Positions 1-63,751 of a stretch of 64,000 nt of DNA are shown here, one piece after another (positions within the stretch are counted from its first letter, which is position 1; each line of letters starts with the position of its first letter). The stretch is taken from assembly GCA_027604185.1 (NCBI GenBank), contig JADGKB010000018.1:103497-167496 (forward strand), given 5' to 3'. The notes beneath the pieces were generated by a model. That model ran no database searches and was not told where the DNA came from. It saw only the letters and a list, made by a program, of their open reading frames with translations. Origin of the DNA: Boothiomyces macroporosus. Taxonomy: Eukaryota > Chytridiomycota > Chytridiomycetes > Rhizophydiales > Terramycetaceae. A program made the position numbers and the translations under genes.

Positions 1-126
1 AAAGAAGCTATCGCAAGTTGGAATAGGTACTCTATAACTGATGTAGAAAATGAAACCGAAATTTCATTCTTCAAGCTTGCCGACTATAATGTGTTTAAAG
101 CCAACCCGGAAATTAAATGGGAATGA
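1..126 (+). CDS. 3' end of an unknown protein-coding gene (partial)
   Basis: The window opens inside a gene. Reading frame 2 gives KKLSQVGI, then a 20-nt GT-AG intron at 27-46 (starts GTACTC, ends ATGTAG), then ENETEISFFKLADYNVFKAN and PEIKWE to a TGA at 124-126. Removing the intron is required, because the unspliced frame stops at once. The intron length and shape match the others in this window, which supports the splice. The C-terminal stretch is not one I recognise, so no function is given. Confidence 0.5.
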   Translation, partial: KEAIASWNRYSITDVENETEISFFKLADYNVFKANPEIKWE

Positions 127-313
127 GAACCCATTCCAAGTAATAAAATTAAAATTATTGATTGATGGCGGTGTAGTTTTAATTTGGTATTGGCTATGAA
201 GGGCTTTGAATCAATCACAAACACCACGTCTCCTCTTTTGCCTCGTAGGCGGAGTAGGGGATCACAGCCAAAATGCCGAATGGGAATAAAAAGACAGACA
301 ATTGACACTTGAC

Positions 314-781
314 ATGCCTAAAGTAACTCTCAAAAAACCATTAAACAGCTTCTTTTTATATCGCAAATCAAAGAAGCAAGAAATAATCCGCAATTACCAT
401 ATTACAAAAAGCCATGAAATCAGCAAGAAAGCAGCAGAGTTGTGGCAGTTGGAAAGTAGAGAAGTCAAGGACTATTATGCAAAGCTGTCACTTGAGGAGC
501 ATAATAAATTCAAGGAAATGAATCCGGATTTCGATTGGCAGCCATGGAAAAAGAAAAGAAATGATACCAAGAAGGATGAAATCAAATCTAGTCTACCGCC
601 ATTAATTGATCCTGTAAATCTCAACAGTTATTATCCATCACCAGTAGAATCAGCGATTTACTTTCCGTTGGTAAAAGAGCTTGATATTACTGAATTATTT
701 ACACAAGAGTTTAACCATTCGCAGGCGAATCAAGTTGAACCATTTAACTTTGAAGAGTTTCTTGATTTCAGTATATGTTGA
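314..781 (+). CDS. MATA_HMG-box transcription factor, copy 1
   Basis: A 155-residue protein with one HMG box at about residues 5-78, running from KKPLNSFFLYRK to the NPDFDWQPWKKK ending typical of fungal MATA_HMG proteins, followed by an acidic, low-complexity tail. Such boxes bind the DNA minor groove; in fungi they include mating-type and sex-locus regulators. The first in-frame ATG is at 314; the longer frame begins at a TTG and was not used. An AATAAAAAG stretch about 30 bp upstream may act as a TATA element. It is the first of three related genes in 3.4 kb (1552 and 3198 are the others), which suggests local duplication. The C-terminal acidic motif FNFEEFLDF resembles the acidic ends of copies 2 and 3. 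A role in mating is possible but not shown. Confidence 0.88.
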   Translation: MPKVTLKKPLNSFFLYRKSKKQEIIRNYHITKSHEISKKAAELWQLESREVKDYYAKLSLEEHNKFKEMNPDFDWQPWKKKRNDTKKDEIKSSLPPLIDPVNLNSYYPSPVESAIYFPLVKELDITELFTQEFNHSQANQVEPFNFEEFLDFSIC

Positions 782-1280
782 CTTGGCCCGTCAACCTCTC
801 CATATCAATTCTTTTGTAATAAATATTCCTGAACCTTACTATGAATACGAGTGGGATCAATGTAGTATTTCTTGGAAATAAACTGTAATATTTTGGACTG
901 ACTTTACCGTCTGAAAGATAATTGTAGTGATTTCATCAGTCGTACATAAATATTTCTACCGATCGTTTATAATTTTGCTGCACAAAGAAAGAACAGGTGA
1001 TTGATAACCATTTGAGCCTTCTGGTGACAGCAGTTGCAAAAATAGTTGTATGACTCGATGAATCACCAAACTCACAAGCAATGGAAAAATGTTCAGCCCA
1101 AACTGTGGAAAATGTTCAATTTACAGTTATGTCGACTTGGCTGGCACATAGATTTCAATAAAACACTGTCCCAAAAGCTTTATGGCACTATAGGCCTTAT
1201 AGGCGGTATTGCTTTTTTAAAACTTAACTGCGTACACGATTCGCTAAATCCCCTTACTCTTTAGTACGTGAAGCACAAAT

Positions 1281-1286
1281 CACGTG
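1281..1286. promoter_or_regulatory. CACGTG E-box (TCACGTGAT context)
   Basis: The palindrome CACGTG lies in TCACGTGATT. The same extended motif occurs at 20159-20164 and 53984-53989, each time in intergenic DNA close to gene starts. Cbf1/USF-type bHLH proteins bind this core in fungi and animals. Its use here is inferred. Confidence 0.4.
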
Positions 1287-3814: not shown

Positions 3815-5119
3815 ATGACTCGCAATTGGGACATTATCCAACAGGGAGACTGGATAGTTATTAAAATGCCATCTGGAAACCAAAAATTAATCCAGCTACA
3901 ACCAAATGTACAAATTGAACTTGGAAAGTTTGGAAAGTTTCAATCGTCAGAACTGATTGGAAAATATTACTCTGTTCCATTGGAAATATACGATAGAGAT
4001 AAACTGAAACGAGTCGAGAATACGGATTACTTATTAGACTTTGAAATAGATCCTAGAGTTGAAACTGATGCTACCAACCAAGAGATTTTCGATGATGCAA
4101 ATTCCCAAAAACTAACTCAAAAAGATATTGAAGAAATGAAGCTAAAGAGCTTGGATGGCAGCGTTCATCACCAAACCATAATCAAAGAAATTGTGTCCAA
4201 TAATGAAAAGTTTAACGAGAAAACCGAGTTTGCCAAAGCGAAATATATCAAGCGCAAAGTCAAAAAGTAATATTTGCTAATTCAGGTATTCCAAAATCTT
4301 TATCCCACTGTTTCCTAACGCACGCAATTTGATCGAGTATCACAACTTGAAAAATCCTGAAAAGATTCACGAATTACGAATTGATTCTTTATCTCAAATA
4401 CTGACATATGCCAATGTGCGTGCTGGTAGCCGGATGTTGGTTTGCGATGACACTGGCGGTCTGTTGGCGACTGCGATTTTGGAAAGAACTCATGGACTTG
4501 GAACTTGTTACTTTTTCCATGATGGTCAGAATGCTAGTTTGGAAATAATGAAATGCTCCAACTTTTCAAATGAAGTATTATCCTCTTTCAAAACCTTTGC
4601 ATATCAAAACATTGGAAAACAGCCTGAACTACGAGGTGTGTAGTGTTAATAATAGAAATTGAAGAGGGCGCTGATGTAAAGCCAGAGTTAATTGAGAAAA
4701 TCAACGCCAGAAATGCCAATATCAAAGAAACTTTTTCTACTCTAGAGCAAGGAGGGTTTGATTCGTAAATTTCGACTAAATCTAGTTTAATAATATCAAC
4801 TAAATTTGATACAACTGAAGTAATTAAAAAGCTGGAGCAGTTTTTAGCACCATCTGCTATAGTGGTTGCATACTCTGCCAGAAAAGAGTTGATTTTGGAA
4901 GCTTATGAATATTGTCGCAAGTCTCCTTCATATGCAAACACTTTCTTGACAGAAAGTTGGTTGCGTGAATATCAAGTTCCCGTATTCACTTCAGGAACGC
5001 ATCCAAATATGATGATGTCTGGTTCTGGTGGATTTATATTCAGTGCAACAACAGTGACTACTCCCGAAGGCTTGGTTATTGACAAAACTACAAAGCGAAG
5101 AAAGACTAGTAAAAACTAA
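3815..5119 (+). CDS. TRM6: tRNA (adenine-58-N1)-methyltransferase non-catalytic subunit
   Basis: TRM6/GCD10 is the RNA-binding partner of catalytic TRM61 in the nuclear complex that makes m1A58, needed for stable initiator tRNA. The spliced product is 414 residues, starting MTRNWDIIQQGDWIVIKMPS, with the family features GKFGKF and YANVRAGSRMLVCDDTGGLL, and the C-terminal block WLREYQVPVFTSGTHPNMM and SGSGGFIFSA. Three introns are needed and all restore the family frame: 4267-4285 (19 nt), 4636-4655 (20 nt) and 4765-4785 (21 nt). The ATG at 3815 is chosen because the longer upstream frame begins in T-rich leader DNA. It is somewhat shorter than yeast Gcd10, and the C-terminal part is compact but complete. 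Confidence 0.93.
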
Positions 5120-7139: not shown

Positions 7140-8912
7140 ATGCATCTATCTGCCAAACTAGTCACTTTACTAGCTGTTCCTACTGCTTTTGCAGGATTAT
7201 TCAACCTGATTCCGCCTGTGCAAGACTACTTGTGTCTTCCAAAGAATAGCCCAAACATTACTGCTCGTAACCAACAATTAGCCATCCAACAACAAAACTT
7301 TATTGACGGCCCAGGATTTTTTACTATTGCTAACCAACCAGGATACTTTCCAATGCCAAATGGTCCACAATTCACTCCAACCTGGTACCAATTGATGCTT
7401 TCTGAAATTGGTGAAATTGCTTATAGATCAAATGCATCTGCTTTCCAAGCTGAACAACTTATTCCGTATGACTTGGTGGCTGCTGGTATTCCAATCAATT
7501 CTCTAACTGATTTGACAAACATGGTAGACTTTGAACTGACAATAGTACTACAACTTTACTTCAGCTATCCGTTTTCCTTATTCAATCATCAACTGGGAAG
7601 CCGATTCGTCATTTGGCCAAGACAGGTTATCATGGGGTGGATACTCTTTGAAAGCTGAAACTGCCAATGTGTTGAATGTCCCAGACACTATCACCGTACA
7701 ACTCACTGGCTTAACTTTTGCCCAGTTATTGTCCCAAAATAGAATCTACAAGGTTGATTATTCCAACATTGGTAGCCATATCTAACTTTAGGCAGCTATT
7801 CCAAATCAAACGTTGGTCAAGCAAATCCACTGGGACAATCCATTCCAGGTACTTATTTGAATTTGTACATTGATGCATCCGGAAATCCTTACCCTCTTGC
7901 TATTAAAGTAGTTGACACTGGTTTGGTTTACACTCCTTTGGATGCTCCTGAAGATTGGATGTTTGCCAAGCTGGCTTTCTCCACTAGTGAAGGATTCTTT
8001 TTACCAATGGAACACTTCCTGATTAACCACATGAGCCTTATCGCTGCCAGAGTAGAACTGATGCGCCATGTCTCTGTACAACATCCAGTATACGCTTTGC
8101 TTAGCCACCACTTTACTGATTCCTATGGTAACATCATCTTTGGTGTACAAGCCTTGTTGCAAAATGGAACTGCTTTTGATACCATCTATGGTTGCGGTGG
8201 TTTGGGTGCTTCTAGATATATTGGTGATCGCACTTTGACCTACAACTTTACTGCCCAAAAGATCAATAACTGGTTCGCTGCTGCTGGAACTACAAATGTC
8301 CCAAATTACAAGTACATGACTGATTTGCTTGCTATTCGCGCAGCTGTTGGCTCGTTTGTCCAAAACTATTTGAGCATCTACTACAGAAGCGATGCTGATG
8401 TTCAAAACGACCCAGAAATCCAAGCTTGGGCTGCAAACACTGCTTCACCATCTGGTGGAAATATGGTTGGTTTCCCATCATCCTTCTCCACTTTGTTCTC
8501 CCTTTCTGATACTATTGCTGATCTAATTGTTTTCTTGACCGCTCAACACAATGTAATGAATGGTGAAGCTTCTTGGGATGGACAAGTTTTCCCAGCAAAA
8601 CCTCATGCTATGTACGGCCCTTTACCAACTGCTAAAGGCATTCCATCATCTAGAGCCTACCTAGCCCCTGTATCGCAATTGATTGCTGCTGAATTGGCAT
8701 TACACTCTGCATTCTTGATTCCAACTCCCCAATCTGCTAAATTAGGTTTCTCCTACGGATCGACCCTTGGTCCATATAGCACCATCCCAATCACTATCTT
8801 CCAAATAGAATTAGATATAATTTCAGATATCATTAACTTGAGAGAAGCTAAGAATGCTCGTAAATTCCTCAACTTGGATCCTGCTCAAATTCCATTCCAA
8901 GTTTGGATTTAA
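7140..8912 (+). CDS. Secreted lipoxygenase
   Basis: Lipoxygenases dioxygenate polyunsaturated fatty acids to hydroperoxides using a bound iron or manganese. The spliced protein is 576 residues with an N-terminal signal peptide (MHLSAKLVTLLAVPTAFAG). The signature region reads EHFLINH then VQHPVYALLSHHF. Predicted metal ligands are H278 and H283 (H-x4-H), H456 and N460 in AQHNVMNG (H-x3-N), and the C-terminal Ile576 carboxylate (ends PFQVWI). Introns at 7524-7545 (22 nt) and 7772-7791 (20 nt) are required to keep the frame. The length is near that of secreted fungal manganese lipoxygenases, many of which end in Val rather than Ile, so the metal cannot be read from the sequence. AATAAA follows the stop by a few bases. 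It probably acts outside the cell or in the secretory pathway. Confidence 0.92.
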
Positions 8913-11986: not shown

Positions 11987-13068
11987 TTACGCTTGCTTTT
12001 TCCAAGATGAGGCGCTTTCTTTTGTAGGGACAAGAATAATTTTCCCAGTGTTTTTACGGTCTTCCATGTATTGGTGAGCGGCACCAACATCTTCAAAGGC
12101 AAATACAGAGTCTACGACTGGTCTAACCCAACCGCTTTCAACTCCATCCAGTATACCTTGAATTGCACCACGATATTCTTCAAGCATATCAAACATGTGT
12201 CCCAGATTCACACCAAATACACCTTTGTTATCATCCATCAGTTTTAGAGGGGACCATTTGGGCATGTTGAACAAGAAATTGAGGAATGCAAATGCCTTGC
12301 TAATGATGTTCATCTCACCCAAGTCACTTAATGATGAGGCTCCAAACATTCCTAACCTTCCAGTCTTTTTCAAAAGAGAGTAGTTTACATTCCATTCCTT
12401 TCCACCGATAGGGTCGATAATCAAATCTACACCTTTGCCTTCAGTGATAGCCAGCACTCTATTTCTGACATTTTCAGTTCGGTAGTCAATAGCATGATGC
12501 AATCCGTGTGATTTTAAAAAGTCGTGCTTTCTTCCAGACGCAGTTCCGATTGTTTTTGCGCCTAAATGAAGGGCAATATCAATTGCGGCCAATCCAACAC
12601 TACCGCCAGCATTTTGAATGAGTACAGTTTGATCTTTGCGCAAGCCTCCCATTTCGTAAATCAATACCCAAGCTGTGGTGTATACAACCAAAATACTAGC
12701 AGCATCAATAAATGAGAGCGAATCTGGAATAACAAACGTGTAAGATTTAGGTGTGACTGCGTATTCTTGTTGGCTGTTGAATCTTGTAAACGCAACTACT
12801 CGCTTGTTCAAAAGTTCAGTTGCATCAGGGCCTTGTATTAATAGATATTACCTGTCTTGTCTACCACACCTGCTACTTCATATCCCATCGTGGTTGGGAA
12901 AGATGGAGCATCAGGATATAATCCTTTTCTCGCCATAATATCTGCAAAGTTCAGCCCAGCAGCTTCAACCTTGATTCTGATTTCACTTCCAGATGGTTCT
13001 GGTATTGGCTTATCCGCATTCTGCAAGATTGAAGGGGGGCCAGCTTTTGGGATTACAATGCTTTTCAT
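11987..13068 (-). CDS. Zinc-less MDR quinone oxidoreductase-like protein
   Basis: A 353-residue medium-chain dehydrogenase/reductase of the quinone oxidoreductase/VAT1 type, expected to use NADPH to reduce quinones or enones in the cytosol. The GroES-like half is N-terminal (IVIPKAGPPSILQ, GLNFADIMARKG). The Rossmann half carries NAGGSVGLAAIDIALHLGAK, corresponding to the family's (A/S)GGVG nucleotide loop. One 20-nt intron at 12832-12851 joins DKTG to PDATELLN. The ATG at 13068 is used; the upstream extension begins with GTG. The catalytic-zinc ligands of alcohol dehydrogenases are not apparent. The TAA stop overlaps AATAAA. Confidence 0.88.
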
Positions 13069-18397: not shown

Positions 18398-19139
18398 ATG
18401 AAATTAGCCCTTTTCGTTTGTGTACCACTTTGTTAATACTAGGATCATCCATATAAAAGTCCAGCAACAGATAATATAGACTATGGTACTCGCGCCTAAT
18501 TATAGTTGAGCTGTTCACCAATCTGTTTGGCGAATTGACTGTCTTTGACGTTACGAAAGAAGAATACCCATCAAATCCTACAGACTATGGCCTTATTATC
18601 ATAACTGGATCGCGCCATAGTTGTTTGGAGACTTTGCCTTGGATTAATAGACTAAAGCAGTTTGTAAAGCAGTACGACAACAGTCCAATTAGGTTTGTTG
18701 GGATTTGCTTTGGGCATCAAATAATTGCGTTAGCCTTAGGTGGCAGTGGTATGAAACAGCTAATTTAGCAATCAGCAATCCAAAAGGTTGGGAAATTGGG
18801 CGAATATCAGTAGAGTTGAACAAAAACAGTCAAACAATACTTGGAAGAGAGAGTATTGCGATTCAAGCAATACATAAAGATCATGTGGTACAACTCCCAC
18901 CAGGGTTTATGAATCTAGGTTCAACAGATATGACAACTGTCCAATGCATGTACAAACCGCGTAAATATTTTACCCTTCAAGGACATCCTGAATTGGCGGC
19001 TAAACATATACATGCACTCATTGATAGAGCTGTTTGTGCTGGAGTATTGACATCTGAACTTGCGTCATCTCTTGCAGATATGGATCTGCCTTTGGATAGC
19101 GAATGGATTGCACATGCTGTTCAAGACCTCCTGCTTTAA
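18398..19139 (+). CDS. Class I glutamine amidotransferase-like protein
   Basis: A 226-residue single-domain GATase1 of the type of yeast YLR126C; such stand-alone proteins are predicted hydrolases of glutamine-like or peptide substrates. The triad is visible: Cys in GICFGHQ (nucleophile elbow) and His-Glu in LQGHPELAAKH. Three introns are required: 18422-18442 (21 nt), 18486-18505 (20 nt) and 18749-18768 (20 nt). Exon 1 is only 24 nt (MKLALFVC), joined to DHPYKSPATDN and then VELFTNLFGELTVFDV, which restores the expected family N-terminus. Without the introns the frame is broken three times. AATAAA follows the stop directly. It is convergent with the proteasome gene. Confidence 0.87.
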
Positions 19140-19297: not shown

Positions 19298-20174
<877 letters not shown>

Positions 20175-20999
20175 TTAGACTTTATTCAAAAAGTGGTAGA
20201 CAGCGTCCATAAATTCGTTTGGTCTACTCGCATGAACCCTAGGATCAGTATTAGTTACCAATGCCCGGCGTCTATCTTGGCAAACTCGCTGTTTGGAAAC
20301 AGTTTCGTTATCTCTGGGTAATCCTCATCCTTAATGTAATCGCTTCTAGTTCCTTGAATGAACAGCGTATCGCCTGTATAAGTGCCTGTTCTATCGAATC
20401 CCCAAACGCTATCAATAGCATCATTCAGCGCTTCCAAGTTTATCCTAAACTTGTAGTCTCCTTCATCTTGTTTAAGATTAGTCAGCAGGAATTGCCGAAC
20501 AGCTAATTCTGGGATAGTACGCGCTAGGAATTCATCTGCCTGCTTTACACTAGTAATTCCAAGCTCAGCTAAGCTAATCATTTCCTTGATGTATTGTTTA
20601 AATAAGGACCCAGATTTAATTGGAAGAGGAGAGACATCCACCACAACCAGTTTGTTTAGTAATTGCGGTTCATCTAATGCTACATACATGGACACTTTTC
20701 CTCCCATACCTGGATTAACACTAAATACTGTGTCCCATTAAATTAACCGGCCCAAGCGGTTTGATGAATTCTTGAACATCCAAGGCCATGAGGTCATAAG
20801 AATGTAGAGCTGTGTGAGGCGAATCTCCGTGGTTTCTTAAATCCAGGGCAAACACTTCAGAATTCAACTTTTTGGTTAGTGATTTGGAGAGCGATGTCCA
20901 GTTTTGCTTAGAGCCAAACAGTCCTGGGAGAATAACTAGTGGTGGATTTTTTATTACTGCGGGTGTGTATTTGTTGAATGCCAGCTTTACAGTGTTCAT
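20175..20999 (-). CDS. Alpha/beta hydrolase, ABHD11/IMO32-like
   Basis: A 261-residue alpha/beta-hydrolase. Visible are the HG-type loop region (PPLVILPGLFGSKQNW), DLRNHGDSPH, the nucleophile elbow GHSMGGK (split by an intron), an acid in the VWGFDRTG to IQGTRSDYI region, and the catalytic His in DAGHWVHASRPNEF. ABHD11 and yeast Imo32 are mitochondrial; no clear targeting peptide is visible here, so location is uncertain. Introns: 20710-20728 (19 nt) and 20239-20258 (20 nt). The only nearby AATAAA lies inside the last codons (N-K-V-stop), upstream of the stop, so the 3' UTR must be minimal. Confidence 0.88.
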
Positions 21000-26806: not shown

Positions 26807-27192
26807 ATGTCTTACGGTACCTATCAATTAATCTAGTCGCTCCAGCTAAAAAGGACCAAGAAAACTTTGTTGAACCAACCATTCACCGCATCAGAATCAC
26901 TTTGACCTCCCGTAACGTCAAGAACCTTGAAAAAGTTTGCGCTGATTTGATTCAACGTTCAAAGGACAAGAACCTTAAAGTTAAGGGTCCAGTCCGTTTG
27001 CCAACCAAGCACTTGAGAATTGCCACCCGTAAGACTCCTAACGGTGAAGGTTCCAAGACCTGGGATGCATGGACCATGAACATCCACAAACGTTTGATTG
27101 ATTTGTACTCTCCATCTGAAATCGTCAAGCAAATCACTTCCATTGCTATCGAACCTGGTGTAGAAGTTGAAGTCACTGTCCAAAACAACTAA
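26807..27192 (+). CDS. 40S ribosomal protein uS10 (S20)
   Basis: A 121-residue protein of the small-subunit head. The first exon is 10 nt (MSY plus one base), followed by a 20-nt intron at 26817-26836, then [20 protein letters not shown] and the conserved [20 protein letters not shown] and [20 protein letters not shown]. The length matches eukaryotic S20 (about 119-121). Codon use is strongly biased to C-ending codons, as expected for high expression. The next gene (PP2C) is convergent, with 27 bp between the stop codons. Confidence 0.97.
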
Positions 27193-42268: not shown

Positions 42269-43483
42269 ATGGAAGTCGTAAAAATCAATCACGACGGGCT
42301 TTTGGCGTTGGAACAACCGCTTATAAAAGTGATTACAAAGTAACCGCTAGGTGCCGTTAGAACGCTTGAAGCGCTCCTTTAGAAGCTCACAAAAAGTAAT
42401 CGAGAAGGAAATTTCATCACTCGTCAACAAATTAAACGATATCTGCGCGTCGCCAGAAATAGATCAACAGGCGCTAAAGGATCTTGCAGGAAGGCTCAAA
42501 CTGCTTAAAGCGAAACTTGCAGAGTTACGGAAAGAAGAACAAGAAAGTATCCGAATTACAAAAGTACGACTGGATTACTTGAATTCTCTTGTAAAAATCA
42601 CAAACGTTGATTCTGATGAATATGTAAGATGGAGTACAATCCGGCTGAATACAATGCTGGTTGATTATTTATCACGTCACGGATTAAATGAATCTGCCAC
42701 TAAATTATCTAAAGACTGTATGATTGAAGATCTAGTTGACCTTGAATTATTCAAACAAGCACAGAAGATCCAGGACTCATTAGCGAGACATTCTTGCACT
42801 GAAGCGCTGCAGTGGTGCAACGAAAACAAGAGCAGTTTAAAGAAAATTAAGAGCCCGTTAGAGTTTAATCTGAGGCTGCAAGAATATATAGAACTGGTTA
42901 GAGAAGGTAAAATTCCTACTGCGATTCAATATGTTCGCAAGTACTTGACACCTTGGTCGGATTTGTACTTGAAGGAAATTCAACAAGCGATGGGGTTACT
43001 CGCGTTCAATAGCACTACCAAATGCAGCAATTATAGACAGCTGTATGACCAAAAGCGATGGAATTTCTTGATTAATAGCTTCCAAATGGATAATTTCACA
43101 TTGAATAATTTGACAAAGCAGCCAATGTTGAATCTAACCCTCCAAGCTGGCTTGACTGCCTTGAAAACCCATTCTTGTTACCAAAGCGACGGAAAGAATA
43201 TCAACTGCCCGGTGTGCTCTAGTGAATCGTTTGGAAAATTGGCTCCAATGCTTCCGTATTCCCACCACGTTAATTCTTCGCTAGTTTGTAGATTAAGCGG
43301 GAAAATAATGGATGAAAGTAATCCCCCATTAGTCTTACCTAACGGCTACGTGTACTCGGCAATGGTATTTTAATTTAATATTAGGCATTAAAAGAAATGC
43401 AAGAGAGGGATGGATATATTATTTGCCCCAGGTCTGGTGCTACATATACACTAATGGATACACGTAAAGCTTTTATCTCGTAA
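42269..43483 (+). CDS. FYV10: GID/CTLH E3 ligase subunit (FYV10/MAEA-like)
   Basis: A 390-residue protein with the LisH-CTLH-CRA-RING order of the catalytic-module subunit Gid9/MAEA, which pairs with RMD5 in the GID ubiquitin ligase that degrades gluconeogenic enzymes in yeast. LisH is at about 100-130 (LVDYLSRHGLNESATKL), CTLH at about 150-205, CRA follows, and a C-terminal degenerate RING has CPVCSS, SHHVNSSLVCRLSGKIMDES and YIICPRSGATY. Introns: 42329-42350 (22 nt) and 43365-43384 (20 nt). The first exon (MEVVKINHDGLLALEQPLIK) is needed to give the expected N-terminus. The stop TAA overlaps AATAAA. Confidence 0.93.
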
Positions 43484-47118: not shown

Positions 47119-48635
47119 ATGTACGTAATACTCCTATTACCTCAATACCAGTCATTAATATTCGAATCAGTCTGGAAATATGGAGAATGCAATGGACCCC
47201 CTAATTCCATGTCAATATATGATGAAAACATAGTTTATAATGTGTTGTATAATTTCGCATCCAATGACTACATTTTACCAGTGTGTGGCTCCAATCCAAT
47301 CAAGATTTATTCAGGTTGTTGCGGGTCATCTCTTGATTTATCATCGTCATTAGGTTATCAGAGCTGGAGTGAGTCTCCTATCGACACTGCTGATTTAGCA
47401 CACGCACCGCGCTCAGCAATATCGAAATCATATTGTGCTTTGTACCCTATTGAACCGAATTCTCTGCAAAACTACACCACAATTATGGCCCTTGCGGATG
47501 GAAGCTGTACTATAAATGGAATTAGATGCTTTTCGAATCAGACGATTGGCATTTATGACAACCACAACTGTACAGGCAAAGTCTCACATTCGATATTACA
47601 AAGCCCACAGATTTTGGAAACTACAGTATATGGAAATATCACGGGCAAAATGCTATCAATATGGAATGGAAGTGTTGTTTATACATGGGTTGCTTATTCT
47701 CCGGAAGTAATCGAAGTACCAAGTGAGTACAGTCATTTGATACCGATTGAATATCTAGCTTTTAGCTCTATAGGCCTAGCGGCAATTTTATCACTGGTAA
47801 AAACCGGATATATAGCCACTTCATACATTCAAAGCAAAAGTAAATTAGCGTTATATCAATCATTCAACTCCGCATTGTGGTTCATATGGATAATATTGTG
47901 CTACTTTTACTACATTACTATATTTGCTACAAACGACGGATGGATGATTCTTTCTCAATTCCAGAACTTTGTGTTCAACTTGGCGACCTACATGACCTCT
48001 GCTGGAACTCTGATGTTTTTCTTGGAAATTAAAAGAAAGTCAGAGTATTACAAGTATGGTCTTGGCGGCCTGTTGCTCTATCAAATTATATTTGCAGGAA
48101 GTAATTACATTGCATTCTTTAAATTTTATCCTTCTACCACAGTGTATGTGTCTTACTGGGCGTATCTGAATCCAGTTTGGGTAAGTCGGCATTAAACTAG
48201 ATTATTTCAGTGTATCTGTTTGACACTATGCCGCAAATCATTCTGGTATGCGATCTTATCCACCACGAACAATTAAAAAAGAAAACCAATTCATTTGCAG
48301 TAGAATGCAGGATGTTTCTAAGAGAGCACAAAGTATATTTATCTCTCGTAGTCATGCATATATGCAATATGATTTCTTTTTTTATCACAATGTATGTAAC
48401 CTCCTACTCGGATATCTTGGGTAATGACAGAGCAGCCCTGGCAATGTGCGGCCCAGTTACTCTAGTCGATGCATTGCATTCGATACTAAACACATCAATC
48501 CTGGCTGAACTAAAGCTGATTCTGGCTTCAAAGATAAACAAAACCAAAGTGCCGTCGATTGTCGACCGAGTGAAAGGACGAGCAAGAGCGAGCACTATTC
48601 AGCGAAAACCTAGTGCAATGGAAAATAAATCTTAA
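47119..48635 (+). CDS. 7TM protein E, Cys-rich ectodomain family (signal-peptide subgroup)
   Basis: A 498-residue protein, first of three tandem copies E-F-G. A short hydrophobic leader (MYVILLLPQYQS) precedes LIFESVWKYGECNGPPNSM. The ectodomain has PVCGSNPIK, SGCCGSSLDLS, YCALYP, CTINGIRC and TWVAYSPEVIEVP. Seven helices begin at about residue 210; helix 5 holds FDTMPQIILV, and LGNDRAALAMCGP precedes helix 7, then LAELKLILASK. One phase-0 20-nt intron, 48181-48200, lies just before helix 5 (NPVW / IISVYLFD) and is at the same codon in F and G. Proposed secreted N-terminus outside, basic C-terminus inside. Confidence 0.8.
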
Positions 48636-48695: not shown

Positions 48696-50295
48696 ATGAC
48701 GTTTCGTAATTTTTGCCTAATGTATGTCCTTGTGTTGACTCGTTCTATATATGCCCTAATGTTTGAATCTGTATGGAAAAGTGGAGAGTGCCAAGGTCCT
48801 CCAACTTCCATGTCCATCTACGACGAGACGGTGGTAGCCAACTATCTTTACACCTTTGCGTCAAACGATTATATTTTACCAATGTGCGGGAGTAATCCAG
48901 TAAAAATATACTCTGGATGTTGCGGAGCATCATTAGATTTAGGTTTGACGATGGGATACCAAAGTTGGAGCGAGCAACCAGTGGATACAACTACAATTGC
49001 AAACGCACCAAAAAGCTCCAATAATCATTATTACTGTGCTTTATATCCGCACAGTAGTTTTTCTCTGTTTAACTATACATCGATATATGCGCTAGCAGAT
49101 GGAGAATGCACAATTAATGGAATAAAGTGCTACCCTAATGGTACTGTGCAGATATACGAGCAATTGGAGTGTCAAGGTAGCTATATTACATCAAATCTCA
49201 ACAATTCTCAACTAATATCCTCTACTTTGCTTGGAAATATTACAGGGGAGCACATCAAAATTACAGATGGGACAGTTGCATTTACGTGGGTAACATACTC
49301 ACCAGAGATTATTGAATACACAGAGTGCTTTGCAGTATGGTTGCCAATAGAATACGCCGCTTATGCTTTGATGAGCGTTGCATCGCTGTTATCCTTGATC
49401 AGAACAGTGTACTTTTCAATCCAATATACAAAGCACAAACGCAATTTGGATCTTTACAGGGCAGTAAACACTGGACTATGGTTCCTGTGGGTGGTGTTCA
49501 ATTTTCTTTATTATACCGTGATGTTTAGTACAAACGAAGGCTGGATGATTCTCGCACAACTGCTTTATTTTGTATTCAATGCAGCAACATACATGACAGC
49601 TGCTGGCACACTCATGTTCTTTTTGGAAATTCAAAGAAAGGAAAAGCACTATACTTTAGGGTTGGTGATGTTATTCGCATACCAACTTGTCACGGGAGGG
49701 AGCAACTACTTGGCTTATTTCAAGTGGGTAGACGTTACATCGTTATTTTTTGATTATTGGGCGTATTTGAATCCAGTTTGGGTACGTGTTCCTAATTTAG
49801 ATTGTTTCTGTGTATTTGTTTGATACCTTTCCCCAGCTGATTTTGGTATACAACTTGATTAGGGCTCGAAGACGTGGGCAAACAACATTGTTCCAGGAAT
49901 TTATGATCTTTTTAAACCAAAACTATATCTACTCAACCTTGGTATTCCTCCATTTTTGCAACATGGTTTGCTTTTACACAATAATGTACTTGACCTCATA
50001 TTCGGAATTATTAGGAAACGACAGGGTGTACTTGGCAATGTGCGGTCCGTTAACCATGGTTGACACGCTCCACTCTATCTTGAATTCATCAATCTTGTCG
50101 GAATTGAAGCTAATACTAGAAGCAAAAATCAAAAAGAGGCAGGTTCCGTCACTGAAGGAACGGTTTGATAAATTCTTTAGCAAAGATAGTCGATCCTCCG
50201 TTACCGCTCTCCAAGATACAATCCACACAAGCGCAGCAACCAAAAAAATTAACCATGACGTGTCTGTAAGCAGGCCAACAGTAATAAACAACTAG
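48696..50295 (+). CDS. 7TM protein F, Cys-rich ectodomain family (signal-peptide subgroup)
   Basis: A 526-residue tandem relative of E and G. The leader MTFRNFCLMYVLVLTRSIYA is a good signal peptide; an internal ATG at 48720 aligns with the starts of E and G and would remove eight residues. The ectodomain marks are FESVWKSGECQGPP, PMCGSNPVK, SGCCGASLDLG, YCALYP and CTINGIKC. Helix 5 has FDTFPQLILV; LGNDRVYLAMCGP precedes helix 7. A 19-nt intron at 49782-49800 occupies the shared site. The TGACGT at 48697 overlaps the first ATG. It starts 60 bp after the stop of E. Confidence 0.8.
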
Positions 50296-50374: not shown

Positions 50375-51929
50375 ATGTTTACTCTAATTCTAATACCAGC
50401 ACATGCATCTCTTACTTTTGAATCTGTATGGAAAACAGGAGAATGCGGAGGACCTCCGTTGTCAATGTCAATCTACGATGAGAATATCGTTGATAATGTT
50501 TTACTAGCAGTTGCTTCGAACGACTACATTCTACCTGTATGCGGATCCAATCCAATCAAAGTGTACACAGGATGCTGCGGATTTTCACTGGATTTAGATC
50601 TGACTCTGGGTTACTCTAGCTGGAGTGAGCAGCCAATTGAATCTCCAGATTTGATAAACGCTCCAAAGAGCGCAAATGCCAATTACTATTGCGCACTATA
50701 TACAAACAGCATTACTTCATTGTACAATTATTCATCTATATATGCATTAGCGAATGGTCAGTGTACGATAAATAGCATGCGCTGCCAACCAAATGGAACC
50801 ATAACCATATATGAAAATTTTGGGTGCTCTGGAAACCATTTCACCACTGTACTAGGTCAAGCCGCGAACTATGAATCTTCAATAGTGGGCAATTTTACTG
50901 GCGAATTCATAAAGATTCTTGATGGAACAGTGACTTATAGTTGGGTTGCCTATTCGCCAGAGAATATAGAAGTTACGAGCACATATGCATACATGATTCC
51001 ATTCGAGTACATTGCTTACACCCTAATATTCCTGGCTTTCTTGTTCTCATTCATTCGAGCAGTCTATTTCACAATCTTGTACATTAAATTCAAGAAACCA
51101 GCAGACCTGTACAAATCCATCAACACAACACTATGGTTCATATGGGTAATCTTGTGCTACTTGTACTACACGGTGGTTTTTACATCGAATCAAGGCTGGA
51201 TGATTCTGGGACAATTCCAACAGTTTGTATTCAATGCGGCAACTTATATGACTGCAGCAGGCACACTGCTGTTCTTTCTAGAAATCCAAAGAAAAGAAAA
51301 GTATTACAGTTTGGGGTTGACTATTTTGTTTATTTACCAGATAATCTTTGGCGGAAGCAATTACCTGGCTTATCTAAGGTTCTATCCCGAAACAACTGTA
51401 TTTTTTGCTTATTGGTCCTACTTGAACCCTGTTTGGGTATTTTATGTTAATCTAGATTATATCTGTCTATTTATTTGATACAATACCACAGATTATCCTT
51501 GTTCATAATCTGGTGCAGTCTAGAAAAGGCGCAACATCCTTTTTTAAAGAGTTTACATGTTTTCTTGGGGAAAACAAGGTTTACACCACACTAGTAGTGT
51601 TACATTTTTGTAACATGATTTGCTTCTATGTGATCATGTACCTTACTTCTTATACTGATATTCTCGGAAGCGATCGCGTAGCTTTGGCGATGTGTGGACC
51701 GCTGACTATGGTTGACATTTTGCACTCTATACTGAATTCAACGATTCTTGCGGAATTGAGAATGATTCTGCAGGCGAGGATAAAGAAAATCAAAGTCCCT
51801 TCACTAAGCCAGAGGATTTATCTGTTGTTCCAAAGACAGAAATCTTCAAGCACGTCGCAACAAATATCAATCAACCGCTCGCTATCTCAGACCAAGAAGG
51901 TTGATCAATCCATAAGCCGCCCATTTTAA
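50375..51929 (+). CDS. 7TM protein G, Cys-rich ectodomain family (signal-peptide subgroup)
   Basis: A 511-residue third tandem copy. The leader MFTLILIPAHASL leads into TFESVWKTGECGGPP. The ectodomain has PVCGSNPIK, TGCCGFSLDLD, YCALYT and CTINSMRC. Helix 5 has FDTIPQIILV and LGSDRVALAMCGPLT precedes helix 7, followed by LAELRMILQARIK. The 19-nt intron at 51437-51455 is at the same codon as in E and F. The C-terminal tail is Ser/Gln-rich with possible phosphorylation sites. The stop TAA lies inside AATAAA. The gene is convergent with uL15. Confidence 0.8.
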
Positions 51930-51978: not shown

Positions 51979-52447
51979 TTAAGCAATCAATTCTACACGA
52001 CCACCAGCAGCAAGAATCTTTTCTTCAGCAAGTTTGGAAACAAATCTGGCTTTGACGATGAGTGGAATTTGTGGGAGCTTTCCTTTTCCTAAAACTTTAG
52101 TGAATCCATGTGCCAAAGTGTCAATAACAGGAACTAAACCTTCAGGGTTTTGTTCAGCCTTCTTTCTTTGTTCTTCAGAAACCAAATCCCAAATCTTTTC
52201 AATATTTAAAACGTTGTTGTGGAATTGGTTCATGGTTTTGTGGAAATAACGCATACCAACTTTACCAAAGTAACCTGGATGGTACATGTCAAAGTTGATT
52301 CTGTGGTGGTGTTGACCACCAGCTAAACCTCTACCTCCCGGATGTTTTCTGTGTTTACCTACACGACCATGACCTGCGGATACATGACCTCTCTTTTTTC
52401 TGTTCTTTGACAAATGAGTTGGCTATTGTTATTTCATCATTTACCAT
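51979..52447 (-). CDS. 60S ribosomal protein uL15 (L27a/L28)
   Basis: A 148-residue large-subunit protein. The first exon contains only the ATG (52445-52447); a 22-nt intron at 52423-52444 follows, then [20 protein letters not shown] and [20 protein letters not shown]. Splicing restores the conserved MPT start and the exact family length. AATAAA is 13 nt after the stop. Codon bias is strong, as expected for ribosomal genes. Confidence 0.96.
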
Positions 52448-52840: not shown

Positions 52841-53645
52841 ATGACTAAACGAGTAAAACTTGGCAATGTGTTTGACGCCTTACAAGCTCTGGAAGATCCA
52901 AAATACAACGCATGGAGATTCTTTAAACCCGTGTACACCCATCCTTCCTCCATGTTTGTTGGGATCAGAGTACCACAGAGCCGCCAAGTAGTAAAAGAAG
53001 TAGAATGCAGCGAAAAAGACATGATTGAACTGATTAAATCAAACAAGCATGAATACAGAAGAACCGGACTTTTCTACCTGAATGAAATCTACAAGAATGG
53101 GGATAAACAGAGAGCAATTGACCTTTACTTGGAATTAATTGAGCATGTAAATAACTGGGATTTAGTGGATGGCTCAGTCGTTGTTCCAGGAAGATGGCTC
53201 ATGGAGAATTACACTCCCAAAGAAGGTCATCAGATTTAACCCAGGCTTGATTAAAGAATACAATTCAGACAAGCATTTAGAGTTGATCAAAGAGCTTCCT
53301 GAATGGTACCAAAAGCTACTAAAATCTAAAGACCTCTGGGAGATGCGTATATCTATTGTCTTGTTACTCTCCTGCAAAGAGCACCCAGACTTTTGCTTTA
53401 ACATCTTGAATTATTGCTCAGCAAGGAAAGAGATTTACTTGTACGGAAAGGAATTCAATGACCATGACTTGATTCATAAGGCCATAGGATGGTTGATTAG
53501 GGACACGGGCAAGACAAACAAAACAAAGATGCTCCGGTTTCTCGATTTGTTTGCCATGCATCTCCATCCAACAACCATCTCTTATTCTACCGAACATTTG
53601 AATCCTTCTCAAAAGCAGAAATACAAAAAAATGGCTAAAAAGTAA
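52841..53645 (+). CDS. AlkD-like DNA alkylation repair HEAT-repeat protein
   Basis: A 261-residue all-helical protein of the AlkC/AlkD DNA glycosylase family, which removes positively charged alkylated bases. It shows the family core NWDLVDGS and SKDLWEMRISIVLLL (W-x-x-R-I-(A/S)-(I/V)), and a C-terminal ILNYCSARKEIYLYGKEFND followed by KAIGWLIRD. One 19-nt intron, 53226-53244 (donor GTCATC), joins TPKEG to LIKEYNSDK. The ATG at 52841 is the first in-frame ATG; the longer frame begins with TTG. Catalytic competence cannot be judged. Confidence 0.85.
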
Positions 53646-57070: not shown

Positions 57071-57090
57071 TACGCAGCAAGTATTGTGAT

Positions 57091-57104
57091 TTTATATTTA
57101 TATA
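57091..57104 (-). promoter_or_regulatory. TATA element of the EXORDIUM-like gene
   Basis: TATATAAATATAAA on the minus strand, about 34 bp before the ATG at 57070. Confidence 0.55.
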
Positions 57105-57496
57105 GCATGTTTAATCCCAAGTTTAATATCGCGATATTAAATTGCACAGACAAATCAATCGATTCAAAAATACTAATTTTGGTAGGTTTCCTGGACATAT
57201 GTGATTTGTTATTAAGAGTAATCTTTGGAATAATCTTGGTAGAGACTACCAAGTGGTTGCTGCTGCTAGACGTTTCTAAAACTAGATAAAATCTGATATC
57301 CCTATGCTCGAATTATCACCATGATATCCTAGTGGATTCTATATTCTTGGCAATCTGCATAGATCACAGAAAAATTTAATAATAGTAGCCCACTTGAGGT
57401 ACCAAACAAGAATTGCTACCAGCCACGAATGTCTGGCAATATTCTGATCAAAGTACTGGTTAGCATTGAAAATACACGTCACTTCTTTACTTTTGC
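57105..57496. other. Intergenic region before 7TM gene I
   Basis: About 390 bp without a supported gene. At its right end, ACGTCA (57476-57481; TGACGT on the minus strand) lies 16 bp before the 7TM gene I start. Confidence 0.45.
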
Positions 57497-59148: not shown

Positions 59149-60269
59149 ATGGAAGATCAGGCTGTATCTGAAACCACACAAGAATCTGTTCCTATGGCAG
59201 AGCCGGAACAAATTGAACAAATCGAACAAAATGAACCCGTGGAACAAAACAACGACCAGCTTACACCTGGACAGCCAAAAGAAATCCTGAGAGAGAGCAA
59301 TAAATCCATCAAGAGGCATTCATTAAAAAAAGATTCCACAAACTCAAAGTCTGAAACCAACAAAAAGGAATCAGCAGACAAAGTGGAAAAGTCCGAGTCT
59401 TTCTTTGCTATAGATCCTTTGGAAAAGATTGAATCTCCAGATCTTTCTCCCTCTATTGCCGAAGAACAAAAGAAACTGTTAGACCCATTTCCCCATCGTC
59501 ACTATATCACTTTTCATCCGTGTGTAAATAAGCTATTGGATATGAAGTGGGACCAAAACCTCCGCACGATGCATTTAAAGAAACTCAAAGGCATAAAATC
59601 AAATATAGACAACAAACCACCCAAACAGCTACCACACTTGGAACACAAATTAAAGAAGATACAAATGGAAAATGGTAGTCAATACTAATATAGATCGCCA
59701 AGCTGAAATTTATAGAAACAATAAAATACTATTGGAACGAATGTCTGCAATAATGTATTTAGAAGCGCACGATCCAGACATTCACCAAACCAAATATCCA
59801 CAAATATGCACAAACGCAACAGTTCGTGCAAGAGAGCAAACAAGAATATCTATAGAAAACAAAGTAGCAATTACTAATTTAGAAAATGTTGCATCGATTA
59901 GAAACGAAGCAGCCTCATATTAGTCATAGAGAACTCGACGTTGACAGGTACAAGAGCCTAGCTTATCTCGAAAACATTTCTGGTTTCCCACAAAAGTACA
60001 TTGAACAACGGCAAGAATATTCCGAAAGAATCAAGCAAAAGAAACCAAAGGTTGCGGCTGTAAATCCAGTACTGCGAAAAACATTTTTGAATACTATCGA
60101 TACAAACAAGTACTTGCGTCGGTTTGAAAAGAAAGTGTTGCCAGAGATACGGCCAAGGACTAGTAATGTTGTTGAGAGAACTATGATGGATGCCTTGAGC
60201 GATGCCAGTGATGATAAGCCTATCGAACAAGATACAGAAGCTCCAACGGAAGCCATACAAGAAGCATGA
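59149..60269 (+). CDS. CFAP97/Hemingway-like cilium-associated protein
   Basis: A 360-residue protein. The N-terminal 100 residues are acidic and Gln/Lys-rich; the rest matches the CFAP97 (KIAA1430/Hemingway) pattern: DRQAEIYRNNKILLERMSAI, then ISIENKKMLHRLETKQPHIS and YLENISGFPQKY. Animal relatives localise to or are needed for motile cilia. Two 19-nt introns, 59675-59693 and 59864-59882, are required; the second restores ENKKMLHRLE. The TGA stop overlaps AATAAA. If the assignment holds, the organism probably has a flagellated stage. Confidence 0.75.
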
Positions 60270-60762: not shown

Positions 60763-61764
<1,002 letters not shown>

Positions 61765-62047
61765 TGACAAGGGTTTAAGATTGCAAAAAAATCAAAAAAT
61801 TATTCGTGTCTATTCTGCTTTCTATGTCACCTGTAGAGACTCGTTATTACTGTCTTGATAACTACCTCTTATATTTCTCTATTGTTGCTAACTATTAGAG
61901 TCTCTCTATTAGTCTATTACTGCTCCTATCCGCTCCCTCTTTGTCTGTCTCTGCACTAAACTGACCTAATACGCTTCCAAAGTCAACTACCAGTATTAAC
62001 CTAGCAATCTCTCCCAATATAAAATTATTAATCCATGGATATTTACT

Positions 62048-62819
62048 TTATTCAATTGGCTTTTTAGGGACTATTTTCTCTTGTATATTCTCTTGATTAA
62101 CGACTTTACTCTTTCCCAAATTGATGTAGACAAAGTAAAACACAAACAGAACGAGCACATACATTATTGCTCTAGTAAAAGTAAACCTTCTTGAAGGTCT
62201 AGATTAGTAACAATTACGATATGGTAGTAGTAACTCTTCTTTGTTTATAATCTTCATCGTCTGGATCAATAGTCAAACTGGTGTATTTCTTGTTTGGAAA
62301 AGTACTGGTTGGCTCTATTCCACTAGAGAAACCTGCTTCAATTTTAGGCTCTGGAATGATTGTCTGGTCCGACATGAACTGATTTGCCCAACTTGACTGT
62401 TTCAACTGTAGGCGCAACTGTTCCGCTAATTTACCTCCCTGATGGTTAGCTGGTATAATTCTAGCCTATATTAATAATAGTTACAGAACAAGTGGGACAA
62501 GAGTATCCATTCTGAGATGTATTTGCTGGTAATCCCTGACAATAACTATTCAAGCAATCCAAATGAAACAAATCCAAACAAGTTAACCTAACTAGTGGTT
62601 TTACATTTAACGGTAAAGAACATAATCCGCAATCCGGCTTAAAATCAGAGTCCTGTAACCACTGCAAATAACTCTTTACTGCATTAGTATAAAGCACCTA
62701 TACAAGATGGATGTGATTCCACAATACAAGTCTCACATACATTCTTTCTGTGTTCAAAGCAAACTATATTAATTTGAATTACATAGATTCGTTACGTTTC
62801 GACATTTGCATAATCCCAT
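62048..62819 (-). CDS. ZFPL1-like Golgi RING/B-box protein
   Basis: A 231-residue protein with the ZFPL1 layout: an N-terminal Cys-rich B-box-like part (MGLCKCRNVTN, CFEHRKNVCETCIVESHPSC), a RING-like domain (SYLQWLQDSDFKPDCGLCSL, LDLFHLDCL, GYSCPTC) and one C-terminal helix (AIMYVLVLFVFYFVYI). In animals ZFPL1 is a cis-Golgi membrane protein. Four 19-nt introns: 62764-62782, 62679-62697, 62466-62484 and 62199-62217. The stop overlaps AATAAA. Its ATG is only 17 bp from the divergent TGS1 ATG. Confidence 0.93.
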
Positions 62820-62836
62820 GATTGTTTTTTTTTAAA

Positions 62837-63751
62837 ATGATTAAATCAAAAGCTCAGAAACGGAGAGAACGGAGGTTCAAGTTGGTTAAAGCGAGGGGGG
62901 AATTACAGTCTGCTTTAGATAAATATAGTATATCTCTTGGAAATACAAACTCTCTTGGGAATACAAACTCTCTTGGGTTCTTGAATGACGATGAATACAT
63001 TCAGACTACTAGAGACGATGATTATATACAGACTACTAGAGACGATGAATATCTACAGACTACTAGAGACGATGAATACATTCAGACTACTAGAGACGAT
63101 GAATATCTACAAACTACTGAAAACAAAGAATCAAATACACTTGATAACTGGAGTCTGGATAGATTACCAAAAAATATGCACAAGTATTACCACCAAAGAT
63201 ACTCTCTATTCTCTCTATTCGACCATATAAAAATAGACATGGAAGGCTGGTTCTCTGTAACTCCTGAACAAATAGCTATTCATCTAGCAAACAGACTCAA
63301 GGGCGGAACCATTATCGATGCCTTTTGTGGAGTAGGTGGCAACACTATCCAATTCGCTAAAAAATGCGACAAAGTAATTGCTATAGACAACAACAAAACT
63401 AGACTAGAGTGTGCCAAGCATAATGCTAGAGTATACGGTTGTGAAAATATAGAATTCATTCATGGTGACTACATGCAACTAGATTTAAAAGCAGATAAAG
63501 TATTCCTATCTCCACCATGGGGAGGAATATCATACAACCAAAGTGAATTTAGTATTGATGACATGCCGATAAAAGGAACAGATATATTCAACAGAACCAA
63601 AAGAATTACGAATGATATTTGTTTCTTTTTACCAAGAAATTTGAAAAAGGAAGAGTTGATGTTTGAGGATGTCGAATTTGAGGAAACTTTTTTGGATGGA
63701 AAGTTGAAGTCTTACTCTGTTTACTATGGAAATCTAATAAATAGACACTAA
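62837..63751 (+). CDS. TGS1: Trimethylguanosine synthase
   Basis: A 304-residue methyltransferase that converts the m7G caps of snRNAs and snoRNAs to m2,2,7G. The SAM core is clear: IIDAFCGVGGNTIQFAKKCD, VIAIDNNKTRLECAKHNARV, IEFIHGDYMQ and the catalytic VFLSPPWGGISY. The N-terminus carries a basic start (MIKSKAQKRRERRFK), two tandem SLGNTN hexamers and five tandem nine-residue DDEYIQTTR repeats, which are not part of the enzyme family. The ATG at 62837 is the first in frame. No intron is needed. Confidence 0.95.
   Translation: MIKSKAQKRRERRFKLVKARGELQSALDKYSISLGNTNSLGNTNSLGFLNDDEYIQTTRDDDYIQTTRDDEYLQTTRDDEYIQTTRDDEYLQTTENKESNTLDNWSLDRLPKNMHKYYHQRYSLFSLFDHIKIDMEGWFSVTPEQIAIHLANRLKGGTIIDAFCGVGGNTIQFAKKCDKVIAIDNNKTRLECAKHNARVYGCENIEFIHGDYMQLDLKADKVFLSPPWGGISYNQSEFSIDDMPIKGTDIFNRTKRITNDICFFLPRNLKKEELMFEDVEFEETFLDGKLKSYSVYYGNLINRH
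62938..63115 (+). repeat. Tandem coding repeats in the TGS1 N-terminus
   Basis: An 18-nt unit (tctcttggaaatacaaac type) repeats two to three times, then a 27-nt unit encoding DDEYIQTTR or close variants repeats five times. Copies differ by few bases, so the array is young. Confidence 0.88.

Follow-up and report, generated by a model that had tools for sequence, protein, structure and literature searches.

Very probable spliceosomal introns of about 20 nucleotides in the nuclear genome of the chytrid Boothiomyces macroporosus

Background

Chlorarachniophyte nucleomorphs carry 793-1,028 GT-AG introns of 18-23 nucleotides (nt) per genome, along with rare introns of 40 and 41 nt that have a central AG and are interpreted as fusions (PMC4494063). 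Among ciliates, Stentor coeruleus has introns of 15-16 nt in which the branch A is fixed at the 10th or 11th position (PMC9505925), and those of Paramecium and Nyctotherus are about 25 nt long (PMC5014332). According to Irimia and Roy, lineages with short introns have weak signals and no branch signature, except for species that are poor in introns (PMC2483917). For fungi, a survey of 644 genomes calls the Cryptococcus mean of 63 bp relatively short (PMC8476143). Here we analyse a 64,000-nt stretch of the genome of Boothiomyces macroporosus (Chytridiomycota, Rhizophydiales, Terramycetaceae), hereafter the window, for which uniform spliceosomal introns of 18-22 nt had been predicted from the letters alone. 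That prediction likened them to introns of chlorarachniophyte nucleomorphs and ciliates, and comparable introns are indeed published there. We found no report of introns of about 20 nt in a fungus in the open-licence PMC literature, and the accessible text of PMC13391722 and PMC10470594 does not mention intron length. From DNA sequence and protein conservation, the intervals described below are very probably U2-type spliceosomal introns of a chytrid nuclear genome, mostly of about 20 nt.

The window covers positions 103497-167496 of contig C18 and so reaches the end of that contig (167,496 bp); the assembly has 216 contigs and totals 15,203,306 bp. Its RPN11 protein, once three introns are removed, equals the annotated protein of Boothiomyces sp. 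JEL0838 (P0001) at 299 of 299 residues. For proteins encoded outside the window, identity is 99% between PRP8 and that of Boothiomyces sp. JEL0866 (P0121) and 94% between ISY1 and that of JEL0838. After Boothiomyces, the best named matches of RPN11 and ISY1 are mostly other chytrids. The second-best score for RPN11 went to a protein labelled Dendroctonus ponderosae (P0002), whose best local piece is just 64% identical and which is possibly a mixed gene model.

Results

Restored reading frames

Our final finder allowed introns of 16-26 nt and back-to-back pairs, had no preference inside that range and admitted only GT or GC at the start and AG at the end. It called 56 rows in the window: one of 18 nt, 17 of 19 nt, 25 of 20 nt, six of 21 nt, four of 22 nt, two of 25 nt and one 39-nt unit. 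Five of these are doubtful and are left out of Table 1 (9025-9049, 30618-30637, 30800-30824, 42221-42241 and 50274-50295). The original prediction had counted 54 introns (one of 18 nt, 18 of 19 nt, 27 of 20 nt, five of 21 nt and four of 22 nt).

Alignments to PDB proteins cross the junctions of RPN11 (two introns) and proteasome alpha-4, and those of uL15 and uS10 (RPS20) begin at or beside the junction and support mainly the start codons, in uS10 that of a 10-nt exon 1. With seven introns removed, the PP2C protein scores 238.9 bits to PF00481 in a match that covers all seven junctions, and AFG1, with five removed, scores 328.3 bits to PF03969. The predicted restoration of conserved frames stands for RPN11, PP2C and AFG1 and extends to alpha-4; the gene perhaps named TRM6 there is a candidate gene model. 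Outside the window, U2AF65 scored 230.7 and 31.1 bits in pieces before splicing and 342.7 bits after it (cut-off 310.3); for Slu7 the pieces scored 154.6 and 94.7 bits and the spliced protein 293.9 bits, covering the whole profile. PRP8 has six introns of 20, 19, 21, 21, 22 and 22 nt. The sole indel between it and the JEL0866 protein is a 7-residue insert in the latter, RLSFTNC, exactly at the first intron here (20 nt), and this insert fits the reading of a retained 21-nt intron with an ACNAAY branch. It seems that the orthologous JEL0866 intron, different in sequence and length, was kept in by the annotation. Likewise, in a metagenome ISY1 (P0287), seven extra residues stand where ISY1 here has a 20-nt intron.

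The 39-nt unit of alpha-4 divides at an internal AG/GT into 20 and 19 nt, with all signals in both halves, and the PDB alignment requires all 39 nt to be out; it had been counted as two stacked units in the original prediction. A second such unit was called beside PRP8, from a gene model only.

Intron length

For a coding model, 70 long open frames taken from 286,611 bp served as the training set. In a motif-free test, a frame-following algorithm skipped intervals of 12-60 nt bounded by a chosen dinucleotide pair, with the reading frame required; the duplicated region described below was counted twice, in every dinucleotide class alike. GT..AG gave 57 skips, 32 of them at 18-22 nt with a peak at 20, and 14 control pairs gave 33-55 skips each with 0-7 in that range, so that GT-AG alone among the 15 classes has the 18-22 nt peak. 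We then seeded weight matrices with 34 skips of 18-23 nt and refined them over three rounds under a flat prior of 12-40 nt. In models with at least 300 coding bases, 291 of 311 introns fell at 18-23 nt. With TG..GA as a decoy in the same context, there were 70 skips over all models, of which 13 had such lengths. When lengths of 12-150 nt were allowed, 230 of 272 introns were of 18-22 nt and none was of 12-17 nt; with the peak at 20 nt, introns of the Stentor type (15-16 nt) were not found here. Two longer calls of the flat-length model, 28 nt in PP2C and 35 nt in the RING-type gene, proved to be model errors that resolve to 20 and 19 nt. Fully unguided skips, for which the penalties were too loose, showed no 20-nt peak, and expectation-maximisation that used an empirical length prior ended in over-merging; we draw on neither.

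Across 319,041 bp the final catalogue has 213 gene models with 414 introns. Of these introns 395 measure 18-23 nt; a near-identical 39-kb duplication on the contig inflates the count. There are 379 unique introns, of which 363 are of 18-23 nt; the latter are 28.6% GC. For a genome-wide test independent of gene models, we searched for GTAATTN{2,32}TAATNTAG, in which the branch A is fixed at -6 and the length is free from 16 to 46 nt, and obtained 445 matches against 62 for a reversed control. Among the first 100 of the 445, 52 were of 19 nt, 28 of 20 nt, five of 21 nt, four of 22 nt, three of 16 nt and eight of 24-46 nt; the last figure compares with about 10 from the scaled control, and no excess of longer introns was seen with this pattern. 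Extrapolation to the whole genome gives some 23,000 introns, a very rough figure because the pattern fits only 6 of the 363 unique introns. The motif-free, flat-length and genome-wide tests thus confirm the uniform lengths predicted for the window, with the peak at 20 nt. The genome-wide distribution, proposed as a check, agrees in that 80 of the first 100 matches lie at 19-20 nt; two ISY1 intervals outside the window, of 46 and 49 nt, do not fit it and are discussed below.

Branch site and spacing

A branch motif (yUnAy-like, score at least 6.5 of 8) is present in 361 of the 363 unique introns, mostly as TTAAT, CTAAT, TTAAC or CTAAC. Its A lies at intron position 14 in 161, 15 in 146 and 16 in 32 (at 14-15 in 307 of 361). 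Counted from the 3' end with the last G as 1, it lies at 6 in 174 and at 7 in 135 (309 of 361 together), in agreement with the predicted branch-like element close to the AG. Joint counts of the two spans, observed against those expected under independence, are 85 and 77.6 at 19 nt, 75 and 70.4 as well as 69 and 60.2 at 20 nt, and 48 and 54.6 at 21 nt. The two spans, each varying by about one base and nearly independently of the other, add up closely to the intron length. Degenerate signals of the nucleomorph type, without a branch signature, are not what we found; the motif is clear and sits at a nearly fixed place.

The 3' matrix behind most of these introns favours an A at -7 or -6, and only two sets are free of this bias. 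In the motif-free set (34 introns, 29 distinct), every intron has a branch motif scoring at least 7; its A falls at 14-15 in 26 introns, and in 33 if position 16 is included. Among 1,986 GT..AG decoys of 19-21 nt from exons, 467 (23.5%) reach this score, and the motif has no preferred place in them. In the 15 introns anchored by homology (RPN11 three, alpha-4 four, uL15 one, uS10 one, PRP8 six), the A lies at 14-16 and 6-7 from the end.

At the 5' site, usually GTA, position +3 is A in 338 of 363 introns and +5 is G in just 81. The unique introns begin with GT in 357 cases and GC in six, in a catalogue restricted to GT or GC with AG; the statement that nearly all are GT..AG holds with the correction that GC-AG introns occur.

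Splicing machinery

The original prediction held that such introns would imply a modified spliceosome, and proposed U1, U2AF and PRP8 as places to look for linked changes. The assembly contains two copies of U2 (142.2 and 135.4 bits) with GUAGUA intact, a U1 of 68.8 bits, just below the gathering threshold of 69.5, with its 5' end AUACUUACCUG intact, and a U6 of 62.2 bits with ACAGAGA intact. The pairing regions of all three are canonical. PRP8, Prp18, Slu7 and U2AF65 are all present. Yeast work suggests that the second-step factors Prp18 and Slu7 might be lost where the branch lies close to the 3' end, here 6-7 nt; this expectation was dropped, both being present. The N-terminus of Cwc25 is intact, MGGGDLNLKKSWHP aligning from residue 1 with human and yeast Cwc25.

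ISY1 differs from these. Its usual MARNEEKA-like start is replaced by MAPKTLAQKQE, likewise in JEL0838, and all eight PDB matches begin at residues 32-41. Translating the first 1,300 bases of the locus in all three sense frames gave no match to the usual motif (R-N/S-x-E-K/R-A/S). Of 327 homologues the best 120 were inspected: the 117 with an initial M include 71 that carry the motif, and the other 46 mostly begin at an internal methionine, which makes them uninformative. A full but divergent start is found in Boothiomyces, Globomyces, Kappamyces, Gorgonomyces and two unnamed sequences, in an alignment with 12 motif-bearing sequences chosen by hand. In cryo-EM structures the ISY1 N-terminus sits on the branch helix in the branching conformation (PMC8022279).

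PRP8 was compared among the 82 sequences of 2,250-2,450 residues within 120 PRP8s listed. It differs from at least 97% of the 81 others at 38 positions, joint fourth of 82 after Gorgonomyces (53), Allomyces (48) and one unnamed sequence (40). Thirteen of the 38 changes fall in residues 1870-2040, the highest number of the 82 (next 9 and 8), in a region picked after seeing the cluster. We therefore do not take PRP8 as the modified part, its overall count being unexceptional, and keep this post hoc cluster only as a weak lead. Among the parts covered, only the ISY1 N-terminus departs clearly from the usual, and the notion of a modified spliceosome, opposed by the canonical RNAs and the presence of the other proteins, is weakly supported.

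Other features of the window

The introns of the window are collected in Table 1.

Table 1. Intron positions in the window (gene model: called from a gene model)
Feature	Length (nt)	Position	Strand	Basis
Gene perhaps the predicted TRM6	19	4267..4285	+	gene model
Gene perhaps the predicted TRM6	20	4636..4655	+	gene model
Gene perhaps the predicted TRM6	21	4765..4785	+	gene model
Lipoxygenase-like gene	22	7524..7545	+	gene model; in motif-free set
Lipoxygenase-like gene	20	7772..7791	+	gene model; in motif-free set
Zinc-type alcohol dehydrogenase	20	12832..12851	-	gene model; in motif-free set
Intron	21	18422..18442	+	gene model
Intron	20	18486..18505	+	gene model
Intron	20	18749..18768	+	gene model
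Proteasome alpha-4	20	19691..19710	-	PDB alignment crosses junction; in motif-free set
Proteasome alpha-4	20	19836..19855	-	PDB alignment crosses junction
Proteasome alpha-4, stacked 39-nt unit, second half	19	20016..20034	-	own 5' site, branch motif, AG
Proteasome alpha-4, stacked 39-nt unit, first half	20	20035..20054	-	own 5' site, branch motif, AG
Intron	20	20239..20258	-	gene model
Intron	19	20710..20728	-	gene model
Myb-domain gene	20	26129..26148	-	gene model
Myb-domain gene	20	26381..26400	-	gene model
uS10 (RPS20)	20	26817..26836	+	best PDB match starts at residue 4, at junction
PP2C	20	27379..27398	-	inside PF00481 match of spliced protein
PP2C	19	27524..27542	-	inside PF00481 match of spliced protein
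PP2C	21	27653..27673	-	inside PF00481 match of spliced protein
PP2C	20	27721..27740	-	inside PF00481 match of spliced protein
PP2C	20	27909..27928	-	inside PF00481 match of spliced protein
PP2C, GC-AG	20	28000..28019	-	inside PF00481 match of spliced protein
PP2C	20	28066..28085	-	inside PF00481 match of spliced protein
AFG1	21	28885..28905	-	gene model; downstream of Pfam match
AFG1	19	29265..29283	-	inside PF03969 match of spliced protein
AFG1	18	29668..29685	-	inside PF03969 match
AFG1	19	29809..29827	-	inside PF03969 match
AFG1	19	29913..29931	-	edge of PF03969 match
Tcp11	21	32943..32963	-	flanking unspliced frames carry Tcp11 profile positions 1-60, 70-435
FAD monooxygenase	20	35713..35732	-	gene model; in motif-free set
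Second FAD monooxygenase	19	37748..37766	-	gene model; in motif-free set
Second FAD monooxygenase	20	38134..38153	-	gene model
Alkaline phosphatase	20	41038..41057	+	gene model
Alkaline phosphatase	20	41223..41242	+	gene model; in motif-free set
Intron	22	42329..42350	+	gene model; in motif-free set
Intron	20	43365..43384	+	gene model
Tandem membrane-protein-like family	20	48181..48200	+	gene model
Tandem family paralogue, corresponding place	19	49782..49800	+	gene model; sequence unlike neighbours' introns
Tandem family paralogue, corresponding place	19	51437..51455	+	gene model
uL15, right after ATG	22	52423..52444	-	PDB alignment from residue 1; exon 1 = ATG only
Intron	19	53226..53244	+	gene model
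Intron	19	59675..59693	+	gene model
Intron	19	59864..59882	+	gene model
RPN11 intron 3	20	60891..60910	-	spliced protein 299/299 = JEL0838 RPN11
RPN11 intron 2	20	61320..61339	-	gap-free PDB alignment, identity to JEL0838 RPN11
RPN11 intron 1	19	61591..61609	-	gap-free PDB alignment, identity to JEL0838 RPN11
RING-type gene	19	62199..62217	-	gene model
RING-type gene	19	62466..62484	-	gene model
RING-type gene	19	62679..62697	-	gene model
RING-type gene	19	62764..62782	-	gene model

The RING-type gene is presumably ZFPL1-like. Membrane-protein-like genes whose N-terminus is rich in cysteine (GPPNSMSIYD...) form a tandem family at 13891-17541, 38948-40411, 47119-51929 and 54432-58975; three members have an intron of 19-20 nt at the corresponding place, with differing sequences, and the one spliced member tested gave no Pfam match. 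Three consecutive frames (314-781, 1552-2133 and 3198-3717) share the start KKPLNSFFLYRK, and the first of them matches the HMG box PF00505; the trio is possibly a transcription-factor or mating-type-like cluster. A secreted-looking protein at 30624-31551 on the minus strand matches the violaxanthin de-epoxidase (VDE) lipocalin profile at 85.7 bits, the host being evidently a fungus. This match, near the FAD monooxygenases, had suggested a photosynthetic (algal) origin of the DNA, an idea overturned by the identity of RPN11 to that of Boothiomyces.

At least 39,325 bp are duplicated at 99.964% identity, positions 1-36935 of the window lying within one copy and C18:53497-92821 forming the other, 47,610 bp upstream. 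Match pairs at a constant offset occur also on contigs C2, C10, C20 and C65, and C49 equals C100 over 1,500 compared bases. These pairs, the C49/C100 identity and the 39-kb repeat reflect either assembly duplication or recent segmental duplication.

Discussion

The U2-type reading is based on GT(GC)-AG ends, a branch motif that fits U2, restored reading frames, and the presence of U1, U2, U6 and core proteins in the assembly. The spliceosome would recognise each intron as one small unit, by intron definition. The 5' site would be held by U1 and then by U6, U2 would pair with a branch whose A is usually 14-15 nt into the intron, and the AG ending about 6-7 nt past that A would serve as the 3' site. 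Because three or four bases separate the branch A from the AG, no polypyrimidine tract fits; U2AF65 probably acts through proteins, or a factor like SPF45 may take its place as it does in human short introns (PMC8363638). With both spans nearly fixed, engaging one site may position the next, and intron length would be nearly the sum of two short rulers.

Several points weigh against this account or limit it. The evidence for introns consists of DNA sequence and protein conservation. In the motif-free test the total score gain of GT-AG (230.0) was barely above those of GT-AA (221.6), CA-AG (218.8) and AT-AC (213.4), and because some controls come so near, the evidence from that test is the length peak. 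The branch A is itself inferred from the motif, under the 3'-matrix preference noted above. When lengths up to 150 nt were allowed, 42 of the 272 candidates fell at 24-149 nt, some of which are still possible longer introns. Exons are not depleted of decoys carrying the full intron code (16 sense, 13 antisense, codon-shuffled mean 9.5), and so avoidance of cryptic introns was not seen there; 13 of the 16 sense decoys are of 21 nt and may be missed introns. The divergent ISY1 start also occurs in the relatives Globomyces, Kappamyces and Gorgonomyces, whose introns may or may not be tiny. Finally, to align our locus with the annotated ISY1 of JEL0838, intervals of 49, 20, 19, 46 and 20 nt, in this order, have to be removed. 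The 49-nt interval contains two 20-nt units that carry all signals and have one base between them. The 46-nt interval (positions 1761-1806 of locus L040) starts with GTAAGT and has a branch motif with the A 7 from the end; with it removed the segment equals human ISY1 in length, and our own gene model had left extra residues there. If the annotated orthologue is right, this supports the existence of longer introns, though rare, and lengths that are not strictly uniform genome-wide; the 5' ruler would then be a strong preference and not an absolute limit. The full GTAAGT of this interval may indicate that longer introns keep stronger 5' sites, most of the tiny introns having no G at +5.

That the intervals are something other than introns, such as translational bypass sites, eliminated DNA, or sequencing or assembly errors, would suit the purely sequence-based evidence and an assembly with large near-identical duplications. 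We consider it very improbable, since the 18-22 nt peak appears in just one of 15 dinucleotide classes, a branch-like motif sits at a fixed place within the intervals, an identical RPN11 comes from the annotation of another assembly of the genus, and the insert in JEL0866 PRP8 falls exactly at a 20-nt intron, as expected from retention of a divergent 21-nt intron. Contigs contaminating the assembly from an alga with a nucleomorph would account for the lengths, chlorarachniophyte nucleomorph introns being of 18-23 nt (PMC4494063), but this is exceedingly unlikely given an assembly of 15.2 Mb, identities of 94-100% to Boothiomyces in three proteins, and a clear branch motif where the Bigelowiella natans nucleomorph reportedly has none (PMC2483917).

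How far the spliceosome itself has changed is a separate matter. An ordinary fungal spliceosome may merely tolerate 20-nt introns, the ISY1 divergence being drift of a dispensable stretch, and we give this about an even chance. The canonical U1, U2 and U6, the presence of PRP8, Prp18, Slu7, U2AF65 and the Cwc25 N-terminus, the unexceptional rank of PRP8, the divergent ISY1 starts of the three related genera and the apparent splicing of a 46-nt intron all agree with it. Against it, the ISY1 motif is widely kept where homologues are informative, the segment engages the branch helix (PMC8022279), and Stentor, the one tiny-intron nuclear genome we found examined for ISY1, also lacks this N-terminus (PMC9505925). 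Divergent ISY1 N-termini and tiny introns are thus correlated in two lineages, Stentor and Boothiomyces, and loss of the N-terminus may make room for a tight lariat loop. A bolder proposal is that Boothiomyces and neighbouring Rhizophydiales have a two-ruler spliceosome tuned to introns that place the branch A some 14-15 nt past the 5' site and 6-7 nt short of the 3' end; loss of the N-terminus of the ISY1 clamp, convergent with Stentor, would admit a 14-nt lariat loop to the active site, and longer introns would be spliced poorly or piecewise (compare the 20+19 stacks). We regard this as rather doubtful, the more so because the ISY1 fit supports a 46-nt intron.

Taking the intervals as spliceosomal introns, the genome has introns that are very short, numerous and marked by a clear branch motif in an almost constant position, contrary to the pattern of Irimia and Roy, and a splicing machinery that otherwise looks ordinary has to operate within a very small space. 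The genus has numbered strains in the JEL culture collection (PMC7537106), and the minimal spacing from 5' site to branch to 3' site becomes testable. Annotators may also take a warning: close to its N-terminus, the public JEL0866 PRP8 (P0121) seems to include a translated 21-nt intron.

Like the introns of chlorarachniophyte nucleomorphs, those described here are GT-AG introns of 18-23 nt, and the 40- and 41-nt units there recall the 39-nt stacks. However, nucleomorphs are relict endosymbiont genomes without U4, and with U1 unseen in three of four, whereas this is a fungal nuclear assembly with U1, U2 and U6. A branch signature, clear here, is reported neither for the B. natans nucleomorph nor for Paramecium tetraurelia (PMC2483917). 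Paramecium and Nyctotherus do share tiny introns across a nuclear genome, about 5 nt longer than these (PMC5014332). Stentor resembles Boothiomyces in the fixed position of the branch A, the presence of small nuclear RNAs (here U1, U2 and U6) and an ISY1 N-terminus that is not conserved, but its introns are shorter and have no strong branch consensus, and the N-terminal plug of Cwc25, intact here, is divergent there (PMC9505925). In Yarrowia, Trichomonas and Giardia the branch point is likewise anchored a short fixed distance from the AG; these species are intron-poor (many Trichomonas introns are about 25 nt), whereas introns here are many and the span from 5' site to branch is nearly fixed too (PMC2483917). 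The short human introns that use SPF45 instead of U2AF65 also have a polypyrimidine tract too small for U2AF65, but measure about 56-100 nt (PMC8363638). What is new in Boothiomyces is the fungal nuclear host, a branch signal retained in a genome with so many short introns, and two spacings that are both nearly fixed.

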